Positions 39,106 to 54,706 of a stretch of 64,000 bases of DNA are shown here, one piece after another. The first letter of the stretch is position 1. Each line of letters opens with the position of its first letter. A program made the translations under genes and the position numbers. The DNA lies in NCBI GenBank assembly GCA_022824265.1, contig JAJEAG010000036.1, positions 62,001-126,000 on the forward strand. The letters run 5' to 3'. Below the pieces are notes generated by a model. It did not search any database. It was not told the origin of the DNA and worked only from the letters and a program-made list of their open reading frames with translations. Source of the DNA: Candidatus Poribacteria bacterium (GTDB lineage Bacteria > Poribacteria > WGA-4E > WGA-3G).

Positions 39106-39597
39106 TTAGATAACCCATTTTTCTCTTTTTATCAAGTCTACAACTTTGATACATTCAACTTTAAAGTGCATGCAAACATCAGGTATTTTTGGTCTTTTTA
39201 CACTACCTGCAAGATTTTCCTCGGTTACGACAGTACAATTTTCCGTGATTAATGCGTAAGCAACGCACCAAGGGTCTGCTCCTGATTTTCCAGACCGACT
39301 GTCTACAAGACGTGGGAATACTGCTAATATTTCACGGACTTTTTCTTGAACTTGTATATTAACTCCCTCATGAAGATATTGTTTGAATTGATTCTTATTA
39401 CACCAATGTTTTATTTCAGGATCTCTCATAACTTCTTCAAAAACAACCTGTGACATTTTCAACCTATGGCTTCGAATCAGTTCTTCAATCTTTTTCCATA
39501 GAGTAGGGAAGAATTCTATTGGATAGCGTTCATGAAATGCAGCGATAATCGAACTGGTATCAATGCTATAGATTTTAACTTCAAACAGTGTATTCAT
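39106..39597 (-). CDS. DUF4411/PIN-like protein (putative toxin)
   Basis: A 163-residue protein of the DUF4411 type, a PIN-like nuclease fold. It has an N-terminal acidic strand (IYSIDTSSIIAAF), a second acidic site (SQVVFEEVMRDPEI) and a third (SGADPWCVAYALITENCTVVTEE), the D/E-E-D spacing expected for PIN metal binding. Its ATG overlaps the stop of the upstream XRE-ImmA gene (ATGA), the usual arrangement of this predicted toxin-antitoxin pair. The RNase activity is inferred from the fold. Confidence 0.82.
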   Translation of the reverse strand: MNTLFEVKIYSIDTSSIIAAFHERYPIEFFPTLWKKIEELIRSHRLKMSQVVFEEVMRDPEIKHWCNKNQFKQYLHEGVNIQVQEKVREILAVFPRLVDSRSGKSGADPWCVAYALITENCTVVTEENLAGSVKRPKIPDVCMHFKVECIKVVDLIKREKWVI

Positions 39598-40766
39598 GCT
39601 AAAATTGCACTTTCAATTTTAGAAAGATGTTTTGTATTACAATTGGAAAAAACAGAGGTTAAATCAGCGAGTGTAATTTTGTCCTCATAATATGCACTGA
39701 AAGCTGTGCGGGCAAAAAACTCACCAGAAGAATTAAGTAACCGAGTATGATAATGTGGAAAGCCTTTCGGTTTTTGATTGGTTTCGTTATACTTATTATG
39801 TTGTTCGATTCTAAACGTTTGATACTTTCGTTTTGTGATCTTTTTGAGTGTTAACAACCGTCGCATGATAACTTCAGTACTCACTCGAAAGTATTGACTT
39901 GCTTCAGTTATTAACTTCGAACTGAACGGACGATCTACTATCGTTAGTAGTTCTTTTTCAGGTACTAATACTTCTGCTGCGACTTGATTGCAGAAGACTT
40001 CCACCGGATCTACATTTTGAAAACTGACATCCTCGTAGTTCATATTTTGAATGATACTTTCTCCAAGGGCAATATGTACTAACTCGTGAATAATCGTAAA
40101 AATCCGTCCGTTAGGACTGTCCTGAGAATTTAAAACAATAACAGGAAAAGGGTGTTGTGCTATGCAAAATCCGCGAAAAGTATTCAGTTCAACAGAAAGG
40201 TGTGTGTTAGCAGAAGTTTGACAGACCAGAATACCTTTTGACTCGACAGTCCTTTTCCAAAACTTTAATATTCTATAGCGATCCTTGGTTTGTGGAAGTT
40301 CTTTAACGTTGATATTTAGAAATTTCCTTATTTTTTCCGCAGCGCGTATAGGTGTCTCATTACGATTGACCTTTAATGTCACTTCAGGAAAAGGCATCTC
40401 TAATAATTCATAAAAGTCGATCAATATCTCACGTCTATCAAAAACTTCAAGGACATTTGCTTTTAATCTATAGGCCTGCTCATTATCAGGAACAGCGGAT
40501 TGCGATAATACCCGATAATCAGTAAGTGGATGAAAGTCGGTAGGTGGTTTCGGTAAGTAGAAAATAGAAACATGAGTCCTATAGATATTTGCAATCTTTT
40601 TTAATTGCGCAAAGGTGGGTTGATCTTCACCTTTTTCCCAAGTCTCAAGTCGTTCCGGGTCTATTTTCAATTTTTCTGCTGCCAAGTCAATATCTAATTT
40701 AATTCGTCTTTCCCGCGTCCACTTTAGGACTTCTGGTGTGATGAGTGCTTTTACAGATTTAGCCAT
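39594..40766 (-). CDS. XRE helix-turn-helix / ImmA-IrrE fusion regulator (putative antitoxin)
   Basis: The start chosen is ATG 40766 (MAKSVKALITPEVLKW), giving 390 residues; an ATG 15 bases upstream has no ribosome site. An N-terminal XRE helix-turn-helix (about residues 10-65, LDIDLAAEKLKIDPERLETWEKGEDQPTFAQL) is fused to a zinc peptidase domain. HELVH in IFTIIHELVHIALGES (about residue 225) and the downstream FCNQVAAEVLVPEKELL helix complete the site. Such COG2856-type proteins act as the regulator/antitoxin of DUF4411 partners. A DNA-binding, self-repressing role is inferred. Confidence 0.87.
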   Translation of the reverse strand: MAKSVKALITPEVLKWTRERRIKLDIDLAAEKLKIDPERLETWEKGEDQPTFAQLKKIANIYRTHVSIFYLPKPPTDFHPLTDYRVLSQSAVPDNEQAYRLKANVLEVFDRREILIDFYELLEMPFPEVTLKVNRNETPIRAAEKIRKFLNINVKELPQTKDRYRILKFWKRTVESKGILVCQTSANTHLSVELNTFRGFCIAQHPFPVIVLNSQDSPNGRIFTIIHELVHIALGESIIQNMNYEDVSFQNVDPVEVFCNQVAAEVLVPEKELLTIVDRPFSSKLITEASQYFRVSTEVIMRRLLTLKKITKRKYQTFRIEQHNKYNETNQKPKGFPHYHTRLLNSSGEFFARTAFSAYYEDKITLADLTSVFSNCNTKHLSKIESAILA

Positions 40767-40986
40767 GATATGTATTCCCATGAATTAAACGCGCGTAGTA
40801 AAACTTTTTATCCTTACATTCACAAATAGAAAAAGTCTATTAACACAGACTGCTTTTTAGCGAATAAAGTATATCACAATAGAGGTCAACTGTCAAGATT
40901 CGAGTTCCTTATGATGTATCAATTTCCCTTGAAAAATCAGAAAAATATGGTATCATAGCAAGAAATCAACATACCATAGGAAGAAT

Positions 40987-44114: not shown

Positions 44115-44236
44115 ACTATATATCAATTTGCTGAAGTTTGGGTAATTTCTGTCAGACTATTTTGGTTTCATCTATCCAAACTATAACAAAACACTCTAAA
44201 ATATAGCCAAAATATAAAACCAATAAGGAGATAAAA

Positions 44237-45889
44237 ATGAAAATATTATACACAAGTTTGCTCATTCTGATGGTAATAAGTGGACAATTGTATGCTGAAG
44301 ATCATTCGGCAGCAAACAACAAAATAACACTAAAACTTGACGATTCTTTGGAGGTGTCAGTTAAAGGTAATATTGCGCCGATAGGGGGTGTCGTGTCTAA
44401 TAACTTTAAAGATTGGGATTCCTTGACAAATTTACGGGTTGCAGAACCCAAAAAGAAGTATCCCGCATCGGTTTTCGAATCTTTTCTGCCTAACAAACCC
44501 GTTTCCATTGGTGAACTTTGGATAGTAAATCAGACAGGTGTACTCACCCTACTAAAGCAGCTGCATCCGAATCCAAGTCTGTTTTTACACATCAATGCAG
44601 GTGATTCTCTCGGTTTATGGGCATGTCTGCGGGCATACAATGATAAATACGCAGACATCGTGTTTCGTATCCATGCCGAATTTGTTCTAAAAGATGGTTG
44701 GTTCACGCCTTCACAGTTTACCGGTCATCTTGTTATTGACAGAATTCATGAGAAAGTTGCTTTTTTTGAGATGTATGTACCTGAAGGAACGGTTAACTTT
44801 GATGTTAATAGAAAATATCATGGTAAGCGAATAGCAGGAGCGGGTTATTGCTCACAAATGGAACTCAGAACAGGAGCGAAAGATTTCTTGAAAGACATTA
44901 AGTTTTCAGAATTCATAACACAAAAAGCAGCTGAACGTGCTTTGATTCTACGTTTCTACAGATCGCAGCAAATTAATTGGGTGCCTCCTGAACAAGTATT
45001 GGAAATGTCAAAAGCACAGCAGAAACCGATTCACGCTATCTCAATAGATGGACCGCTGATTGATGAGTCGTGCTGAGGAAGTGGCAAAAGCCTGAGGACA
45101 GGTGTCCTCTCCGATGAAAAAAATATCCAATTCTTGAATGAGAACTTCATCAATACGTGGATATCAAATGTTGAATTAGAACGCACACCGAGTAAGAAAC
45201 AATTAATTGCTCTCAGACGGCAACAGGGATTCAAACCTTTTGATAAAATGCACCCGTTGTCACAAGCGATCATGAAAGGGTGGAAGGAAGGTTCACCAGC
45301 AGATACTTTGGTATTCTCTCCTGAACTTGAACTGTTAGGTAGGTTACCTGTAAATGAACGCAGTGCTCCGTATAACGGTGCCAAAGGTTACCTTTTATTC
45401 CTCAAGAATGCTATAGATAGAAAAATGCCCGGATTGAATGAGGATATCCTGGAACCTACCAAAACCGATTGGAATACGCTCGTTGAATCTGGTGCTATTG
45501 TAGATAGCGGATTAAACGTTGTTCTCACTAACGGGAAGTCGGAACAAGAGGTACTCAGCATTTTTCGTACCCAAGACTATACTATCATCGAAATTGATGT
45601 GACTACTTATAAAGACGGTGGCATGTTATCTATTGAGATATGGGTTGGAGATGCTGAATTAGCGGGTTCGTTTGATCTGTTTGCTTCCACTGTGGAACTT
45701 GTCCCTGAAAACGTCCTTGCATCTGCAAAGGATATTCTACCCGATGAAAGGGAAACAATCATCTATCGTTTTGAGAAGGGACGCGTCTTTAGGTTAGGAG
45801 CAATTGGAAATTCCGGTGAGAAGGTGAAAATCAACGGATTTCTCGCTAATATCTCTGTTAAACCTACGCCAGAAACAAAGGATGAGTAG
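44237..45889 (+). CDS. Putative secreted selenoprotein with Cys-Sec pair (TGA-interrupted frame)
   Basis: An ORF starts at ATG 44237 (AAGGAGATAAAA) with a signal peptide (to about residue 20). It runs 279 codons to TGA (45074-45076) and continues open in the same frame to 45889, 550 residues if TGA is read as selenocysteine (position 280). The context is IDESC-U-GSGKSLR, an adjacent Cys-Sec like a redox centre, and the following residues (LSDEKNIQFLNENFINTW) look thioredoxin-like. A perfect hairpin lies 18-33 bases past the TGA. The downstream part has no in-frame ATG until 45248 and no ribosome site. Residues about 425-550 match the C-terminal module of the next protein. A nonsense mutation is the alternative. 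Confidence 0.75.
45074..45109 (+). promoter_or_regulatory. Putative bacterial SECIS element
   Basis: TGA (45074-45076) is followed by GAGGAC (45094-45099), loop AGGT and GTCCTC (45104-45109). The apical loop begins 23 bases after the TGA and has G at its second position, as bacterial SECIS elements that bind SelB typically do. Confidence 0.65.
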
Positions 45890-46043: not shown

Positions 46044-47366
46044 ATGAAAAACGACGATGTTGAATTAATCCATAATATTCTTGATGGTGATCAGAATGCC
46101 TTTGCGGAATTGGTGCGAAAATATCAGAAACCTATTCACGCGCTCGCGTGGCGGAAAGTTGGCGATTTCCATATTGCAGAAGAGATTACACAGGATACGT
46201 TTTTGAAAGTCTATCAGAAACTGGCAACTTTGGAAGATCCGCGCCGCTTCTCTGGATGGCTTTATAGAATTGCTGCACGTCAATGCAATGCGTGGCTCAG
46301 AAAAAAGCGGATGCAGATGCAATCACTTGATGATATTGATAATAACCTGTTAGAAAAAATAACCTATTCCAATTATATGGCTGAAGAGAAGCAGAAAACA
46401 TCTGTAGCAGCACAACGTGATGTCGTGCATAAATTGCTTGCGCGGCTGCAGGAAAGTGAACGTACCGTCATGACACTCCATTACTTCGGGGAAATGACAT
46501 GTGAAGAAATTAGCCGATTTTTGGGTGTATCAGCAAGCACTGTAAAAAGTCGTCTTCGTCGCGCACGATTGCGTCTAAAGAGAGCAGAACCGATAATCCG
46601 AGAAGCATTAGAGGGTTTCCATATTCAATCAAATCTTATTGAGAATATCATGCGAGAGATTCCTCATATCAAACCCGATTCACCCACTGATGGAAAACCT
46701 TTTATGCCATGGATGATCACTATTTCAACTGTTGTTCTCGTGATGATGTTAGGAATAGGCAATCAATTTCTTTCTCGCTTTCAACAACCTTACAACTTTA
46801 ATGCAACATCAGAGATGTCTGTGGAGATAATTGACGTACCTATTGTTCTGGATATTACATCAAAATCGAATTCACGGACTCAAGAGGGCAGATCTCTGAC
46901 ACCCAGTCAAGGAAACGGGTTTGACCTTAACTCTGTACAATCGGAAAATGTCCCCAGATTCCTTTCCGCACAAGCGAAGAAAGTTGTTCTCAACGATATA
47001 GAGACTTCACAAGATATTTTGAGTGTTTTCCGTACTCCAACTGCCGGTTATCAAGATTATTCTGTGGTTGAGATTGATACAACAGCATTTAGTGAAGGGG
47101 GTTTGCTCACGGTTGATATCCGGGTGGGAAGTGCTGAGGCATCTGGTGCATTCATTCTGTTTGCAGGCGATAGCAAACTTCACATTGAAGATGTTCCTAA
47201 GACAATACTTGCCGCAGCATCGGGAATTCCACGTGGTAAAATAGGGAGAATCACACATCGTTTTGAGCAAGGCGCAACCTTCTTGTTAGGAGCAACTGGT
47301 AAGTCGTTTAGTGGAAAAGGAAAAGCCAATTCTTTTCTCGCGAGTATATCTATAGATCCTGAATAA
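46044..47366 (+). CDS. ECF sigma factor with membrane segment and extracytoplasmic module
   Basis: ATG 46044 behind TTGAGGTATCAC gives 440 residues. Residues 1-185 are an ECF sigma factor: region 2 (FAELVRKYQKPIHALAWRKVGDFHIAEEITQDTFLKVYQ) and region 4 (RTVMTLHYFGEMTCEEISRFLGVSASTVKSRLRRARLRLK). A single hydrophobic helix (about 222-242, ITISTVVLVMMLGIG) follows, so residues beyond it should be outside the cytoplasm. Residues about 312-440 (ILSVFRTPTAGYQDYSVVEIDTT...) are homologous to the end of the selenoprotein encoded 154 bases upstream. It has no CGCGTC motif of its own, so it is probably co-transcribed from 44088. No anti-sigma gene is visible. Confidence 0.9.
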   Translation: MKNDDVELIHNILDGDQNAFAELVRKYQKPIHALAWRKVGDFHIAEEITQDTFLKVYQKLATLEDPRRFSGWLYRIAARQCNAWLRKKRMQMQSLDDIDNNLLEKITYSNYMAEEKQKTSVAAQRDVVHKLLARLQESERTVMTLHYFGEMTCEEISRFLGVSASTVKSRLRRARLRLKRAEPIIREALEGFHIQSNLIENIMREIPHIKPDSPTDGKPFMPWMITISTVVLVMMLGIGNQFLSRFQQPYNFNATSEMSVEIIDVPIVLDITSKSNSRTQEGRSLTPSQGNGFDLNSVQSENVPRFLSAQAKKVVLNDIETSQDILSVFRTPTAGYQDYSVVEIDTTAFSEGGLLTVDIRVGSAEASGAFILFAGDSKLHIEDVPKTILAAASGIPRGKIGRITHRFEQGATFLLGATGKSFSGKGKANSFLASISIDPE

Positions 47367-48624: not shown

Positions 48625-51546
48625 ATGAAAAACGAAGACGCTGATATGATTCAACGCACACTTGCTGGAGATAACAACGCCTTCTCTGAGTTAGTGAAGA
48701 AATATCAGAAACAGGTTCACGCACTTGTATGGCGAAAAACAGGAGATTTCCATCTCGCTGAAGATATTACACAAGATACCTTCCTCAAAGCGTTTCAGAG
48801 GCTTCACACCCTCAAAGAACCGCACAGTTTTGCAGGATGGCTTTATGTTATTGCAACCCGTCGCTATCTCTCGTGGCATCGCAAAAAACGTCGGCATACA
48901 CAAGCATTGGAAAAGATAGATACGCCTATAACAAACAAAGATGCGTATTCACGACATGTTGCGGAGGAACAAGCGCAAACTACCGACAAGGCACAGCAAG
49001 AGGTTGTAAAAAAATTACTCGCAGAATTGAAGGAAAGTGATCGAACCGTCATCACACTTCACTACTTTGCTGAGATGACGTGTGAACAGATGAGTGAATT
49101 TTTGGGTGTATCCGCAAACACGATAAAGAGCAGACTCCGACGTGCACGGAACAGATTGAAACAGGAGGAACCGATGATCCGAGAAGCAATTACAAACTTT
49201 AAAATATCACCAATCTTAACCGATAACATCATGCAAGAAATCGCAAAAATAAAACCTGCTGCACCTTCTGTCAACAAACCTTTGCTTCCGTGGGTAATAA
49301 GTGCATCAAGTGCTGTTTTGGTTATGTTAATGCTTGGTTTCGGAAGTGAACACATACCGCATTTCCAACAACCTTATAGTTTAGAGGCACAGTCTGAAAC
49401 AACGGTCGAACTCGTTGACCTGCCTATCGTTCAAAATGTGGTTGCAAAGCCAGATATACGAAATCAACTGGTGGGACATTCCGACAGAGACGGCAAGAAT
49501 GATGGAAGTGGAAACGAAGCGGATCAGGTTTTAGGAAATGTCGGAGACTACACTCAATGGAATTTACCAAAAGGTGCGAAACATAGACTCAGTAAAGGCA
49601 GCATAAACGGAATCAGTTTTTCACCAGATGGCACTCAAATTGCTGTTGGAAGTGCTACCGGTGTTTGGATCTATGATGTTCGCACAGGTGCTGAAATCTC
49701 ACTGCTTACTGACCATACAACACCATCAGGGAAGGTAGCATTCTCTCCGGATAGTAAAACATTAGCAAGCGGAATGCATGATAAAATCTTGCTGTGGAAT
49801 ACAACAACTGGAAAACTTCTAAGGACATTTAAAAATAAGGTAGGATACATAAAAGATCTAAAAATAATTGACGATGGCAAAACTCTTCTCTGTAAGAATA
49901 GCAACGGTTCAGTTCGTTTATGGGACATCTCTACTGGCGTAATTAAGGACTTCCTCCCTCCACCACCGCATGGAGCAAGTCCATTACCGAGATACATAAA
50001 GGGGTATTTTTACAAAAAGGAATATGAAATTAAATCAGCAGATTTATACCTTAACAACGTTGACAATAAAGGCATTTTTGCGGTCGGGGAAGTAGATGGT
50101 AAAATTCAATTGGAGGATGCAATAACCGGAAAGCATTTAAAAACACTTCAAGACCATAATAAACCTATCTATCAGTTGTTATTTTCGCCAGACGGTACTC
50201 TTCTTGTTGCAACTGATAAATATAGGACTCCACTCCGTATTTGGGATGTAACCACTGGGAAACTCCTAAAAACCTTGTCTCAAACTTGGGGAAGGGGAAT
50301 CCTTACATTTTCTAAAGATGGTAAATTATTGGCTGGTCAGACATCTTCAAGAGAAATTAATTTATGGGATGTTGAGACTAAGACACTTCTCACAACACTT
50401 AGTGGAAAGATAGATACAGATGACAAAATTAAGGAATTGACTTTTTCACCAGATTCTAAGACGGTTGCGGGGGTAAGTCAGAATGGTGAAATCCATGTAT
50501 GGGATGTTAATACCGGTGAAGAGTTATTCTTATATAATAAAGGACATACACCTCAACTTGATGAATTAATGTTATCACCAAATAACAGCCATTTAGCTGC
50601 CGGATATGGAGATACAATTACATTGTGGGATACATTAAACTTCACTCAACTTCCTAACCGTATAGATATAGGTCGATACTCCACTTTCACATTTTCCCCT
50701 GATGGTAGTACAGTAACCAGTGCAAGTGGGTTCATGTATAGGAAACAAATCCGTGATGAATTTGTCAAGGAAAGTGTCGTTGCGACATTAAGTTTTTGGG
50801 ACACACTTACAGGAAACAAAATAAATGAATATCCAGTAGAATCACACAAAGGAGAAATACCAGAGGATTCAGGACAAAGGAACTTTTCGAGTAGTGGAAA
50901 CCTTTCCATAGGTATGTCGCCTAATCCAACTATATTTTCTCAAGATGGTTTTATGCTTACCACTGTTCTAAATACATTACGTGAAAATGTTACGGATGAT
51001 TACCGTTACACCCTGTTCTTATGGGAAGTATGGGAAGATGAGCGTCGTCGGGTCCATACCACCCTCAAAGGACACACAGATAAAATTAACGTATTGGCAT
51101 TAACTCCTAACGGCGATACTCTTGCAAGCGGAAGTGATGATGGAACAATTCGACTTTGGGATACAAGCACTGGAACACAGATATCAAGTATCCCTTCAAG
51201 TAAAACCGATACATTAGCGTTTTCTATGGATGGCAAAATACTGGCAAGCATCAACAATTCTGTTAGCATCCAACTGTGGGATGTTGGGACCGGCAAACAA
51301 CTTACATCTCTCAATGGACAAAACGAAGTCGTTACCGATTTGAAATTCTCTCCTGATAACAATATTCTTGCAAGTGGGAACCTTGACGGAACAATTCAAC
51401 TGTGGGATATATCTAATGGCAAACAATTGGGATTACTTAAAGGACATACCTCCCGACTTATCAATTTAGTGTTTTCTTCTGATGGCAAAACCCTCGTGAG
51501 CGGAGGTAGAGATGGAGACATATTCTTATGGAACGTCCCAAACTAA
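48625..51546 (+). CDS. ECF sigma factor - membrane helix - WD40 propeller fusion
   Basis: ATG 48625 (TGGAGTCTACCG) gives 973 residues. Residues 1-185 hold ECF sigma regions 2 and 4 (FSELVKKYQKQVHALVWRK..., DRTVITLHYFAEMTCEQMSEFLGVSANTIKSRLRRARNRLK). A hydrophobic helix at about 222-243 (VISASSAVLVMLMLGFG) precedes an Asn/Gly-rich linker. WD40 repeats fill about 305-973, from KGSINGISFSPDGTQIAVGSATGVWIYD to LKGHTSRLINLVFSSDGKTLVSGGRDGDIFLWN, probably two propellers. A cytoplasmic sigma tethered to an external sensor is inferred from topology. ECF-WD40 fusions are known in Planctomycetes. An internal AGGAGG-ATG (49163-49176) could start a sigma-less form. Confidence 0.92.
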   Translation: MKNEDADMIQRTLAGDNNAFSELVKKYQKQVHALVWRKTGDFHLAEDITQDTFLKAFQRLHTLKEPHSFAGWLYVIATRRYLSWHRKKRRHTQALEKIDTPITNKDAYSRHVAEEQAQTTDKAQQEVVKKLLAELKESDRTVITLHYFAEMTCEQMSEFLGVSANTIKSRLRRARNRLKQEEPMIREAITNFKISPILTDNIMQEIAKIKPAAPSVNKPLLPWVISASSAVLVMLMLGFGSEHIPHFQQPYSLEAQSETTVELVDLPIVQNVVAKPDIRNQLVGHSDRDGKNDGSGNEADQVLGNVGDYTQWNLPKGAKHRLSKGSINGISFSPDGTQIAVGSATGVWIYDVRTGAEISLLTDHTTPSGKVAFSPDSKTLASGMHDKILLWNTTTGKLLRTFKNKVGYIKDLKIIDDGKTLLCKNSNGSVRLWDISTGVIKDFLPPPPHGASPLPRYIKGYFYKKEYEIKSADLYLNNVDNKGIFAVGEVDGKIQLEDAITGKHLKTLQDHNKPIYQLLFSPDGTLLVATDKYRTPLRIWDVTTGKLLKTLSQTWGRGILTFSKDGKLLAGQTSSREINLWDVETKTLLTTLSGKIDTDDKIKELTFSPDSKTVAGVSQNGEIHVWDVNTGEELFLYNKGHTPQLDELMLSPNNSHLAAGYGDTITLWDTLNFTQLPNRIDIGRYSTFTFSPDGSTVTSASGFMYRKQIRDEFVKESVVATLSFWDTLTGNKINEYPVESHKGEIPEDSGQRNFSSSGNLSIGMSPNPTIFSQDGFMLTTVLNTLRENVTDDYRYTLFLWEVWEDERRRVHTTLKGHTDKINVLALTPNGDTLASGSDDGTIRLWDTSTGTQISSIPSSKTDTLAFSMDGKILASINNSVSIQLWDVGTGKQLTSLNGQNEVVTDLKFSPDNNILASGNLDGTIQLWDISNGKQLGLLKGHTSRLINLVFSSDGKTLVSGGRDGDIFLWNVPN

Positions 51547-51796: not shown

Positions 51797-54706
51797 ATGA
51801 AAAACAACGACGGTGAACTAATCCACCGCATCCTTGATGGTGATGATACTGCATTTTCTCAACTTGTTGAAAGATATCAAAAGCAGGTACACGCACTTGC
51901 ATGGCGTAAAATCGGTGATTTCCATATTGCTGAGGAAATTACCCAAGATACCTTCTTGAAAGCATATCAGAAACTCGCTACGCTCAGAAAACCCACGCAT
52001 TTTGCAGGATGGATATATGTGATTGCAACACGTTGTTGTCAAGCGTGGCTCCGCAAAAAGCGAATACATACTGAATCATTAGAAGAAATAGACAACGAAG
52101 AACTGGAACCAGAAGCATATTCTCGATATATCGCTGAGGAAGGGGAGAAGATAACCGTTGATGCACAACGGCAAATCGTGAAAAAACTGCTTGCTACATT
52201 ACCAGAGAGCGAGCGCACCGTCATAACGCTTCACTACTTTGGAGAGATGACATGCGAAAAAATAAGCGAGTTTTTAGGTGTATCTGCCAACACGATAAAA
52301 AGCCGACTTCGCCGCGCACGGAACAGATTGAAACAGGAGGAACCGATGATCCGAGAAGCAATTACAAACTTCAAGGTATCACCAATCCTAACCGAAAATA
52401 TCATGCAAGAAATTGTAAAACTAAAACCTACTGTACCTCTTGCCAGTAAGCCTTTTGTGCCGTGGATAATTGGTGTATCAAGTGCTATATTGATTGTTTT
52501 GATGCTTCTTGGTATTGGCAGCCAATATCTTGGACATTTCCAGTTACCCTACAGTCTGGATGTACAGTCTGAAACAACAGTCGAAATTGTTGACGCACAA
52601 ATTGTGCAGAACCTTGAGGTGAAACAAGATGTGCGGAATCAACTTGAGGAAGGTTTTGATTTAGATGGTAGAAATGATGGTGATGGTGCCAGTGATAACG
52701 CGAATCAAGTTGAAACTGACCAAGATGACTATACTCGATGGAATTTGCCAGATGGCGCGAAACATAGACTCGGTAAAGGCAGCATAAACGGCATAAGTTT
52801 TTCACCAGATGGCACTCAAATTGCTGTTGGAAGTGCTACCGGTGTTTGGATCTATGATGTTCGCACAGGTGCTGAACTCTCACTGCTTACTGATCATAAG
52901 TCACGTTTTGGCGAAGTTGCATTCTCACCCGATGGTAAAACATTGGCAAGTGGAATGTATGATAAAATCTTGCTGTGGAATATAACTACAAGAAAACATC
53001 TGAAGACCTTCAACAGAGAAAAATCATTGTTCAATACACTAACATTTATTGGTGATGGTAAAACACTTCTCTGTGAAAGTTATGACGGTTCAGTTAATTT
53101 ATGGGATGTAAAGACCGGTGGAAAAACAGACTTCTACCCGAAATCCTCACGCGGGCTTAGTGCACACTTGAGTTCTATTTTTGGACGTGGTGTGTCAGCT
53201 GCGGATCTATTCATTGATAATATCAACAACAACAAAATTTTCGCAGTCGGGTTCGAGGATGGTAAAATTCGGTTGGAGGATGCTGGTAGCGGGAAACGTT
53301 TAAAAACACTTGAAGGTCATACAGATCGTGTCAGTCAGTTGGTATTTTCATCCGATGGAACACTTCTTGTTTCTACTTCTTATTTTAATGATCCACTCCT
53401 TTTATGGGATGTAACCACTGGTAAATTGATAACAACCTTGACTCAAAATCCAAAGTTTTGGGGATTCGTTAGTTTTTCAAAAAATGGTGAGACCTTGGCA
53501 TGCCAAACACTGGACAATGATATTGAACTATGGGATGTAGCGACTAAAACGCTTCGCACAACGATTGGTGAGAAGTTAGAATCTCCAATTTCCTTTAGTT
53601 CAACTATTCACGCATTAGCATTTTCACCAGATTCTAAAAGAATTGCTGGGGCCAATCGTAAGGGGGAAATCCGTATTTGGGATGTTAACACTGGTGACGA
53701 ATTATTTTCATTAAAAAAAGGACATGTATACGGACTTGGTGATTTGGTTTTTTCACCAAGTAGTGACCTTTTAGCAGCTGGACAGGGAAACACGATTCAG
53801 TTGTGGAACGCTCAAAACTTCACTCAACTCTCTAAGCGTATAAACACAGATGGATATTCCGCTTTTGTAATCCCACCTGATGGAAACACAATTATCAGTG
53901 TAAAAGGTTTTAGTTTTACAAAAAAATGGCGTGAGGCACGTATCAAGGAAAGTGTAAATACTACGTTGAATGTTTGGGATATACATTCAGGTGAAAAACT
54001 GTCGGAGTTTCCCGTTGAATCACACATAGAGGACAAACCCTATCCTGTAGAGAAGCATGGATCAGGAATGCCAGGTGGAAGTATGGACGATAATGTAATT
54101 TTATCTCAAGATGGTAATATTCTTGCCGCAGCTTTAAATTCAAAAAATGCCACCAAGGAAAACCGATTTTCAATACTGGTATGGGAAGTATGGGAGGATC
54201 CGCGCCGTCAGAAGCACACCACTCTCAAAGGACATACAAATACAATTAACGTATTGACAACCACTCCTAATGGGCACTGGATAGCAAGCGGAAGTGACGA
54301 TGGCACAATTCGGCTGTGGGATGCAAGTACTGGAACTCAGATGTTAAGTCTCCCCGCAAAAAATACCAGTGCCTTAGCGTTTTCTATGGATAACAAAATC
54401 CTTGCCAGTGCAAACAGTTCACAGCAAATTCAACTGTGGGATATTTCTACCGGTAAACAACTTACATCTTTTAAAAGCCAGAACGATTACATAACCGTTT
54501 TGACATTTTCTCATGATAGCAAAATACTTGCGAGTGGTGGTCATGACGGATCAATTCATCTCTGGGATATTTCTACCGGGAGACAATTGGAATCTCTTCA
54601 AGGACATTCCTATCGGATCTCTAAATTGGTGTTTTCATCCGATAACAAAACCCTAGCCAGCGGAGGTATTGATGGGGATATATTCTTATGGAACGTCCCA
54701 AACTAA
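51797..54706 (+). CDS. ECF sigma factor - membrane helix - WD40 propeller fusion
   Basis: A 969-residue paralogue of the preceding gene with the same layout: ECF sigma (1-185), membrane helix (about 222-243, IIGVSSAILIVLMLLGIG), linker, and WD40 region (about 310-969, ending IDGDIFLWNVPN). Long blocks are identical at DNA level to the upstream gene (for example 52777-52873 vs 49596-49692), and the 3' flanks also match, so the two form a recent tandem duplication about 3.17 kb apart. The blades diverge most in the middle (about residues 430-800), as expected if ligand specificity differs. An AGGAGG-ATG (52335-52348) again lies after sigma region 4. Confidence 0.92.
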   Translation: MKNNDGELIHRILDGDDTAFSQLVERYQKQVHALAWRKIGDFHIAEEITQDTFLKAYQKLATLRKPTHFAGWIYVIATRCCQAWLRKKRIHTESLEEIDNEELEPEAYSRYIAEEGEKITVDAQRQIVKKLLATLPESERTVITLHYFGEMTCEKISEFLGVSANTIKSRLRRARNRLKQEEPMIREAITNFKVSPILTENIMQEIVKLKPTVPLASKPFVPWIIGVSSAILIVLMLLGIGSQYLGHFQLPYSLDVQSETTVEIVDAQIVQNLEVKQDVRNQLEEGFDLDGRNDGDGASDNANQVETDQDDYTRWNLPDGAKHRLGKGSINGISFSPDGTQIAVGSATGVWIYDVRTGAELSLLTDHKSRFGEVAFSPDGKTLASGMYDKILLWNITTRKHLKTFNREKSLFNTLTFIGDGKTLLCESYDGSVNLWDVKTGGKTDFYPKSSRGLSAHLSSIFGRGVSAADLFIDNINNNKIFAVGFEDGKIRLEDAGSGKRLKTLEGHTDRVSQLVFSSDGTLLVSTSYFNDPLLLWDVTTGKLITTLTQNPKFWGFVSFSKNGETLACQTLDNDIELWDVATKTLRTTIGEKLESPISFSSTIHALAFSPDSKRIAGANRKGEIRIWDVNTGDELFSLKKGHVYGLGDLVFSPSSDLLAAGQGNTIQLWNAQNFTQLSKRINTDGYSAFVIPPDGNTIISVKGFSFTKKWREARIKESVNTTLNVWDIHSGEKLSEFPVESHIEDKPYPVEKHGSGMPGGSMDDNVILSQDGNILAAALNSKNATKENRFSILVWEVWEDPRRQKHTTLKGHTNTINVLTTTPNGHWIASGSDDGTIRLWDASTGTQMLSLPAKNTSALAFSMDNKILASANSSQQIQLWDISTGKQLTSFKSQNDYITVLTFSHDSKILASGGHDGSIHLWDISTGRQLESLQGHSYRISKLVFSSDNKTLASGGIDGDIFLWNVPN

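Follow-up and report, generated by a model that had tools for sequence, protein, structure and literature searches.

Does the TGA that divides two consecutive reading frames in Candidatus Poribacteria end a gene, or does it specify selenocysteine (Sec) in the middle of one? The question arises from a 64,000-nt stretch of one contig (hereafter, the window), in which the two frames were originally predicted, from the letters alone, to encode a single secreted selenoprotein with a Cys-Sec centre. With high confidence, we read the window gene as a selenoprotein in which UGA 280 would be decoded as Sec, a reading reached without protein, mass-spectrometry or selenium data. That the protein acts as an oxidoreductase is probable, with redox activity, resolving residue and substrate all inferred. 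The features on which these readings rest are collected in Table 1.

Table 1. Features of the putative selenoprotein gene and its downstream neighbour, in window coordinates
Feature	Position	Strand	Details	Basis
Shine-Dalgarno AAGGAG	44225..44230	+	6 nt ahead of ATG start	sequence
Putative selenoprotein CDS	44237..45889	+	550 aa/codons, single in-frame TGA, ends TAG	sequence
Probable signal peptide	44237..44296	+	aa 1–20 (MKILYTSLLILMVISGQLYA)	judged by eye; disordered in AlphaFold2 (AF2); crude hydrophobicity class
N-terminal beta domain	44324..44872	+	aa 30–212	AF2; conservation
Predicted thioredoxin-fold domain, DsbH/DUF255-like	44909..45436	+	aa ~225–400	Pfam near-matches, AF2, Foldseek
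Invariant Cys279, vicinal to Sec	45071..45073	+	Cys in 206/206 members	
TGA codon for putative Sec280	45074..45076	+	immediately ahead of active-site helix 281–288	
bSECIS hairpin GAGGAC-AGGT-GTCCTC	45094..45109	+	loop 45100–45103	sequence, folding, comparative tests
C-terminal beta-sandwich module	45512..45865	+	aa 426–543; also fused to neighbouring ECF sigma factor	AF2, comparison
ECF sigma factor	46044..47366	+	hydrophobic (TM-like) segment and same C-terminal module (46953–47354)	Pfam, comparison

The reading frame and its TGA

The half-frames 44237–45076 and 45077–45889 are one frame, separated only by the TGA at 45074–45076, and the predicted context, Ser-Cys-TGA-Gly-Ser-Gly-Lys-Ser-Leu-Arg, is borne out. 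Mechanical ORF calling splits the gene at this codon and gives a TTG ‘start’ at 45134. The original prediction saw no start with a ribosome site in the downstream half, and comparison agrees: no start codon is conserved 3′ of the TGA, with codon +6 being TTG in 105 members of the family and CTG in 92. It would have been refuted by homologues ending at the same position or by a misread TGT, TGC or TGG; instead, homologues continue in frame beyond the site, and independently assembled close relatives also have TGA. Sequence comparison demonstrates the gene structure.

The half downstream of the TGA is, by comparison of coding sequences, under purifying selection, with a dN/dS of 0.15–0.25 after the codon versus 0.11–0.18 before it. 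Elsewhere, UGA is still an ordinary stop: 7 of the 25 window ORFs of at least 300 aa end in TGA. A real stop at codon 280, leaving a 279-aa N-terminal product and a separate or decayed gene downstream, would explain the split made by ORF calling and its TTG at 45134, but is scarcely credible given these low ratios on either side, the lack of a conserved start, the retention of the exact TGA, flanked by open frame in both directions, in 205 of 206 members and the position of the cut, which would land inside the predicted thioredoxin fold. The conserved TGA, codon conservation, dN/dS and the TGA stops elsewhere ruled out a split gene and a pseudogene, as well as an ordinary stop and an altered genetic code.

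The bSECIS hairpin and the selenocysteine machinery

The hairpin described in the original prediction is present as claimed, with a loop that starts 23 nt past the TGA and a G at loop position 2. Folding of the 51 nt from 45074 to 45124 gives −14.3 kcal/mol (z = −2.29), a value equalled by 4 of 200 shuffles. For the window gene by itself, the hairpin counts for little and is only suggestive: 4.4% of synonymous recodings of the gene reproduce the 6/6 stem at that place, and 18% contain a bSECIS-like hairpin of some kind, its stem at least 6 bp long.

Alignment of the family settles the reality of the hairpin at the sequence level, through several lines of evidence. First, the published bSECIS model calls for a loop of 3–9 nt, an upper stem of 4–16 bp, a G within the first two loop positions, a loop 16–37 nt after the UGA and a minimum free energy (MFE) of at most −7.5 (PMC13188914). 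All 192 distinct elements satisfy its stem (at least 6 bp), loop, G and spacing rules, whereas synonymous shuffling leaves a hairpin of this type in 24% (maximum 31% over 100 rounds), and the MFE of the 54 nt after the UGA is −7.5 or lower in 99.5% of them. The exact 6/6 stem with a 4-nt loop occurs in 89% of members versus 3.6% after synonymous shuffling.

Second, codon choice is constrained across the hairpin. Arg+7 is AGR in 206/206 members (background 27%), Leu+11 is CTC in 201/206 (background 18.5%) and Gly+9 is GGT in 141/142 (background 36%). In pairs of sequences that share less than 60% identity, codons +6 to +12 are identical at a rate of 0.82 versus 0.21 expected; the resulting same-codon excess is 0.60 there and elsewhere has a median of 0.10 and a maximum of 0.26.

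Third, the stem covaries. Three of its six pairs have changes on both sides, the basal G-C switching to C-G and U-A and an inner G-C to A-U and G-U, with a score above 500 of 500 shuffles and above all slid registers. RNAalifold, run on a sample, proposed an alternative UGAGG/CCUC pairing; the local hairpin was better supported by the slid and shuffled controls and by the synonymous tests.

The machinery for Sec insertion was also found in the same genome, as the prediction would need: selA, selB, selC and selD are all there. On this gene content, the genome has what is needed to make selenocysteine. selB (C34:38034–39929; 354 bits, above cut-off) is directly followed by tRNA-Sec (C34:39990–40079; 78 bits), and selA and selD score 609 and 362 bits. 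Sec-type SelD is known to contain an in-frame TGA itself; this selD carries one, followed by its own hairpin, GCUC-CGGGU-GAGC, with loop CGGGU. In other genomes that bear the family, the set was less complete: a full selA was not found in assemblies G030, G033, G035 and G048, perhaps through incompleteness, and a true selA was not found in G061, the genome of the Gly variant described below, although selB is present.

The codon could instead be read through with a standard amino acid, by programmed or leaky read-through or by local reassignment. Our evidence comes from sequence only, and variants with Ser and Gly at the site exist, both of which leave room for this explanation; it is nevertheless very improbable with a complete Sec machinery in the genome, UGA serving as stop elsewhere, a hairpin that fits the published bSECIS model (PMC13188914) and the codon placed at the nucleophile position of a predicted thioredoxin domain. 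In the preferred reading, SelB and tRNA-Sec would decode UGA 280 as Sec, directed by the bSECIS hairpin just 3′ of it; Sec insertion in the living cell is inferred, though all but certain from the comparative evidence.

Distribution of the family and of its Sec codon

The genome holds seven further paralogues in one tandem array on contig C20 (approximately 10.9–23.1 kb, minus strand). They are roughly 50% identical, and each carries a single TGA, always at this site; a TAG reported within one of these matches falls upstream of that copy’s start. Across the phylum, the family is present in 65 of 85 Poribacteria genomes with 1–18 profile matches apiece, including some to the C-terminal module only, and among the matches listed that cross the site, all but one hold TGA. 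The TGA is also kept in more divergent members from other families within the order (E = 1e-57 to 1e-126), several of which are without the C-terminal module.

As far as the sequence searches go, the family has so far been found only in Poribacteria. When about 85,000 species genomes were scanned, the best 80 of 151 relatives corresponded to 75 loci, all in Candidatus Poribacteria; absence of the family outside the phylum is not proven, because this covers only the best 80 of 151. No relatives were found in 302 genomes outside the phylum with our first profile (A1), a wider profile (A3) gave only weak matches there, and none were found among the viral contigs or plasmids searched. Two of the weak A3 matches, in G380 (7.8e-5) and G333 (1e-3), were set aside because they look like ordinary Cys-containing DUF255/thioredoxin-like proteins.

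The Sec codon is TGA in 205 and TCA in 1 of the 206 aligned distinct members. Counting all 208 loci gives 206 TGA, one Ser, one Gly and no Cys. A tree of 190 members has one codon-state change, the Gly copy having been found later. Since the members share ancestry, they cannot be counted as independent events. The copies in G037 and G061 that seem to lack the TGA are variants with Ser (TCA) and Gly (GGA), not Cys forms. Both the Ser member (L107 and L146; G037:C82:175886–177457) and the Gly member (L171; G061:C115:4430–5758) retain the hairpin sequence. Several other copies in G061 are broken into fragments.

The original prediction had proposed looking for homologues with Sec or Cys aligned at the site: the Sec codon aligns in all but the Ser and Gly variants, and the Cys form did not materialize. 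The family is apparently Sec-only on this sequence evidence, and without any Cys homologue among the sequences found, the usual argument from Cys/Sec pairs is missing. Methods for discovering bacterial selenoproteins rely on such homologues. By its authors’ own account, deep-Sep may not identify selenoproteins without them (PMC12013277), and the present family, in 65 of 85 Poribacteria genomes, is a case at scale of selenoproteins for which no Cys form was found.

In passing, we observed a different exported thioredoxin-like ORF, in a genome from another taxonomic family of the class (L170; G009:C35:73202–73351, minus strand). It has one in-frame TGA within GCV-U-NNGVTGRASVFSDDRVIKILTEQFIPVADN, a C-x-U arrangement, followed by a possible GACG-GGCCGTG-CGTC hairpin, and is perhaps a second unlisted selenoprotein family.

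Predicted fold, genomic neighbourhood and relation to known systems

A thioredoxin-like pattern had been suspected in the downstream half, and structure prediction supports it. With a 63-sequence family alignment, AlphaFold2 models the full protein at a pLDDT of 88.7. The thioredoxin domain modelled alone reaches a pLDDT of 88.2 and a pTM of 0.84. Both models place Sec where the active-site helix begins, and a thioredoxin fold is predicted for the Sec domain on them. The domain’s best fold match in the PDB by Foldseek is DsbH (2ju5; E = 6.8e-5), with the Brucella Thioredox_DsbH protein Bab1_2064 (7tkv) also matched, at moderate TM-scores (0.49/0.59). PF03190 is the commonest Pfam near-match, in 16 of 63 members (best E = 0.012, below cut-off), and the window protein has no PF03190 match at the Pfam gathering cut-off. 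PDB sequence searches returned nothing useful for the protein, and BFVD matches were uninformative. Whole-protein Foldseek matches to beta-sandwich proteins, including a toxin domain, were discounted as generic fold similarity of the beta domains.

An ordinary relative in another phylum has SWCGYCKKM at the active-site position, which, read by eye, makes Sec280 the first Cys position, Gly283 the second and Cys279 an added neighbour. In the N-terminal beta domain, all 63 sequences have Cys130, Arg144, His146 and Glu209, and 57 of the 63 have Cys205. Some of the tandem copies have an additional beta module at the C-terminus (L009 on C20; matches L006 and L007), indicating that the module was duplicated within the family. 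Secretion, the remaining part of the prediction, is supported for the window copy, which has a probable signal peptide by eye. Only some copies would be exported, inspection having revealed no signal peptide in the seven tandem paralogues; a crude hydrophobicity score classed 57 of 122 members as exported-like and 65 as not.

On this reading, the window gene encodes the exported protein among a set of paralogues. Its Sec would take the place of the nucleophile in a DsbH/DUF255-like thioredoxin domain, in a C-U-x-x-G motif in which the invariant adjacent Cys279 stands in place of the usual Cys three residues on. The selenolate would most likely attack a disulfide, sulfoxide or peroxide substrate, resolution might follow through Cys279, forming an Se-S bond, or through another conserved Cys (130 or 205), and cellular thiols would re-reduce the enzyme.

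In the window and most close relatives, the gene after the exported selenoprotein is usually an ECF sigma factor, whose sigma regions Pfam confirms. Of 35 loci compared, 24 have near the exported copy an ECF sigma factor that shares its C-terminal module; some loci stop too early to tell. The C20 tandem array has no such sigma gene adjoining; by eye, it is flanked by TonB-dependent/carboxypeptidase-regulatory outer-membrane-like genes and leuD/leuC. Two more ECF-sigma-like proteins in the window (48625–51546 and 51797–54706), each with a hydrophobic segment and then WD40 propellers, come after the sigma neighbour, a run of sigma-sensor fusions. Elsewhere in the window, on the minus strand (39106–40781), an HTH/Peptidase_M78 (IrrE-like) gene overlaps a DUF4411 gene in the layout of a toxin–antitoxin-like pair.

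This neighbourhood bears on whether Sec is catalytic at all. The protein could be a selenoprotein whose Sec binds a metal or takes part in signalling, perhaps with the ECF sigma factor, rather than catalysing thiol/selenol exchange. C-U-x-x-G lacks the second active-site Cys, the sigma factor shares the C-terminal module at the 24 loci, and the conserved Cys130, His146 and Glu209 could bind metal; conversely, Sec at the N-terminal Cys position of a thioredoxin fold with an adjoining invariant Cys is typical of redox catalysis, and the C20 array manages without an adjoining sigma gene of this kind. We regard a non-catalytic Sec as unlikely. More speculative, and less likely again, is Sec-dependent redox signalling, in which the redox state or a ligand of the selenoprotein would be relayed to transcription through the membrane-anchored ECF sigma factor, and the tandem paralogues without signal peptides would respond inside the cell. 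The idea comes from the C-terminal module that exported selenoproteins and the sigma factor have in common, and the link between the two is inferred.

Thiol/selenol catalysis remains our preferred role, by inference. Searches of Pfam and NCBIfam found no family for the members, only scattered sub-threshold matches; no NCBIfam model covers the family, with single-member matches only (best E = 0.004). Among 119 prokaryotic selenoprotein families catalogued in 2026 (PMC13188914), none has this motif and architecture, and there was no NCBIfam or Pfam model match, families defined by other models lying outside the comparison. Among the open-access papers searched, none contains both ‘Poribacteria’ and ‘selenoprotein’, subscription papers and preprints being outside our scope.

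If the reading is right, ordinary gene calling breaks each copy in two at the TGA, and the demand of Poribacteria for selenium is unusual. The family also offers for testing around 190 SECIS elements that covary naturally, together with two variants that have lost Sec in nature. Poribacteria are known mostly as sponge symbionts. According to a passage of a 2017 study (PMC5649159), SelA and SelB are enriched and co-occur in most sponge symbiont bins of several phyla; that passage names no selenoprotein, and the family would be a concrete candidate user in Poribacteria.

Three known systems resemble the family in part. Thioredox_DsbH/DUF255 proteins (PF03190; 2ju5, 7tkv) have the thioredoxin fold and a similar pattern around the active site, whereas the present family has C-U-x-x-G rather than CxxC, adds N- and C-terminal beta domains and scores below the curated cut-off. 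Mammalian thioredoxin reductase ends in Gly-Cys-Sec-Gly, with Sec penultimate, and so has a vicinal Cys-Sec-Gly; it has another fold, and we claim no relationship. The catalogued thioredoxin-like bacterial selenoproteins (Sec thioredoxin UxxC, thiol:disulfide interchange protein, SaoT and Trx-like Sec.1/Sec.2; PMC13188914, Table 1) likewise have Sec at or near the thioredoxin-fold nucleophile and a bSECIS directly downstream, but with motifs such as UxxC, CxU and UxC (PMC13188914) in place of C-U-x-x-G. The Sec decoding apparatus is ordinary. What is new, as far as our tools reach, is the family itself, along with its C-U-x-x-G motif, its expansion and its apparent lack of any form but Sec-only.
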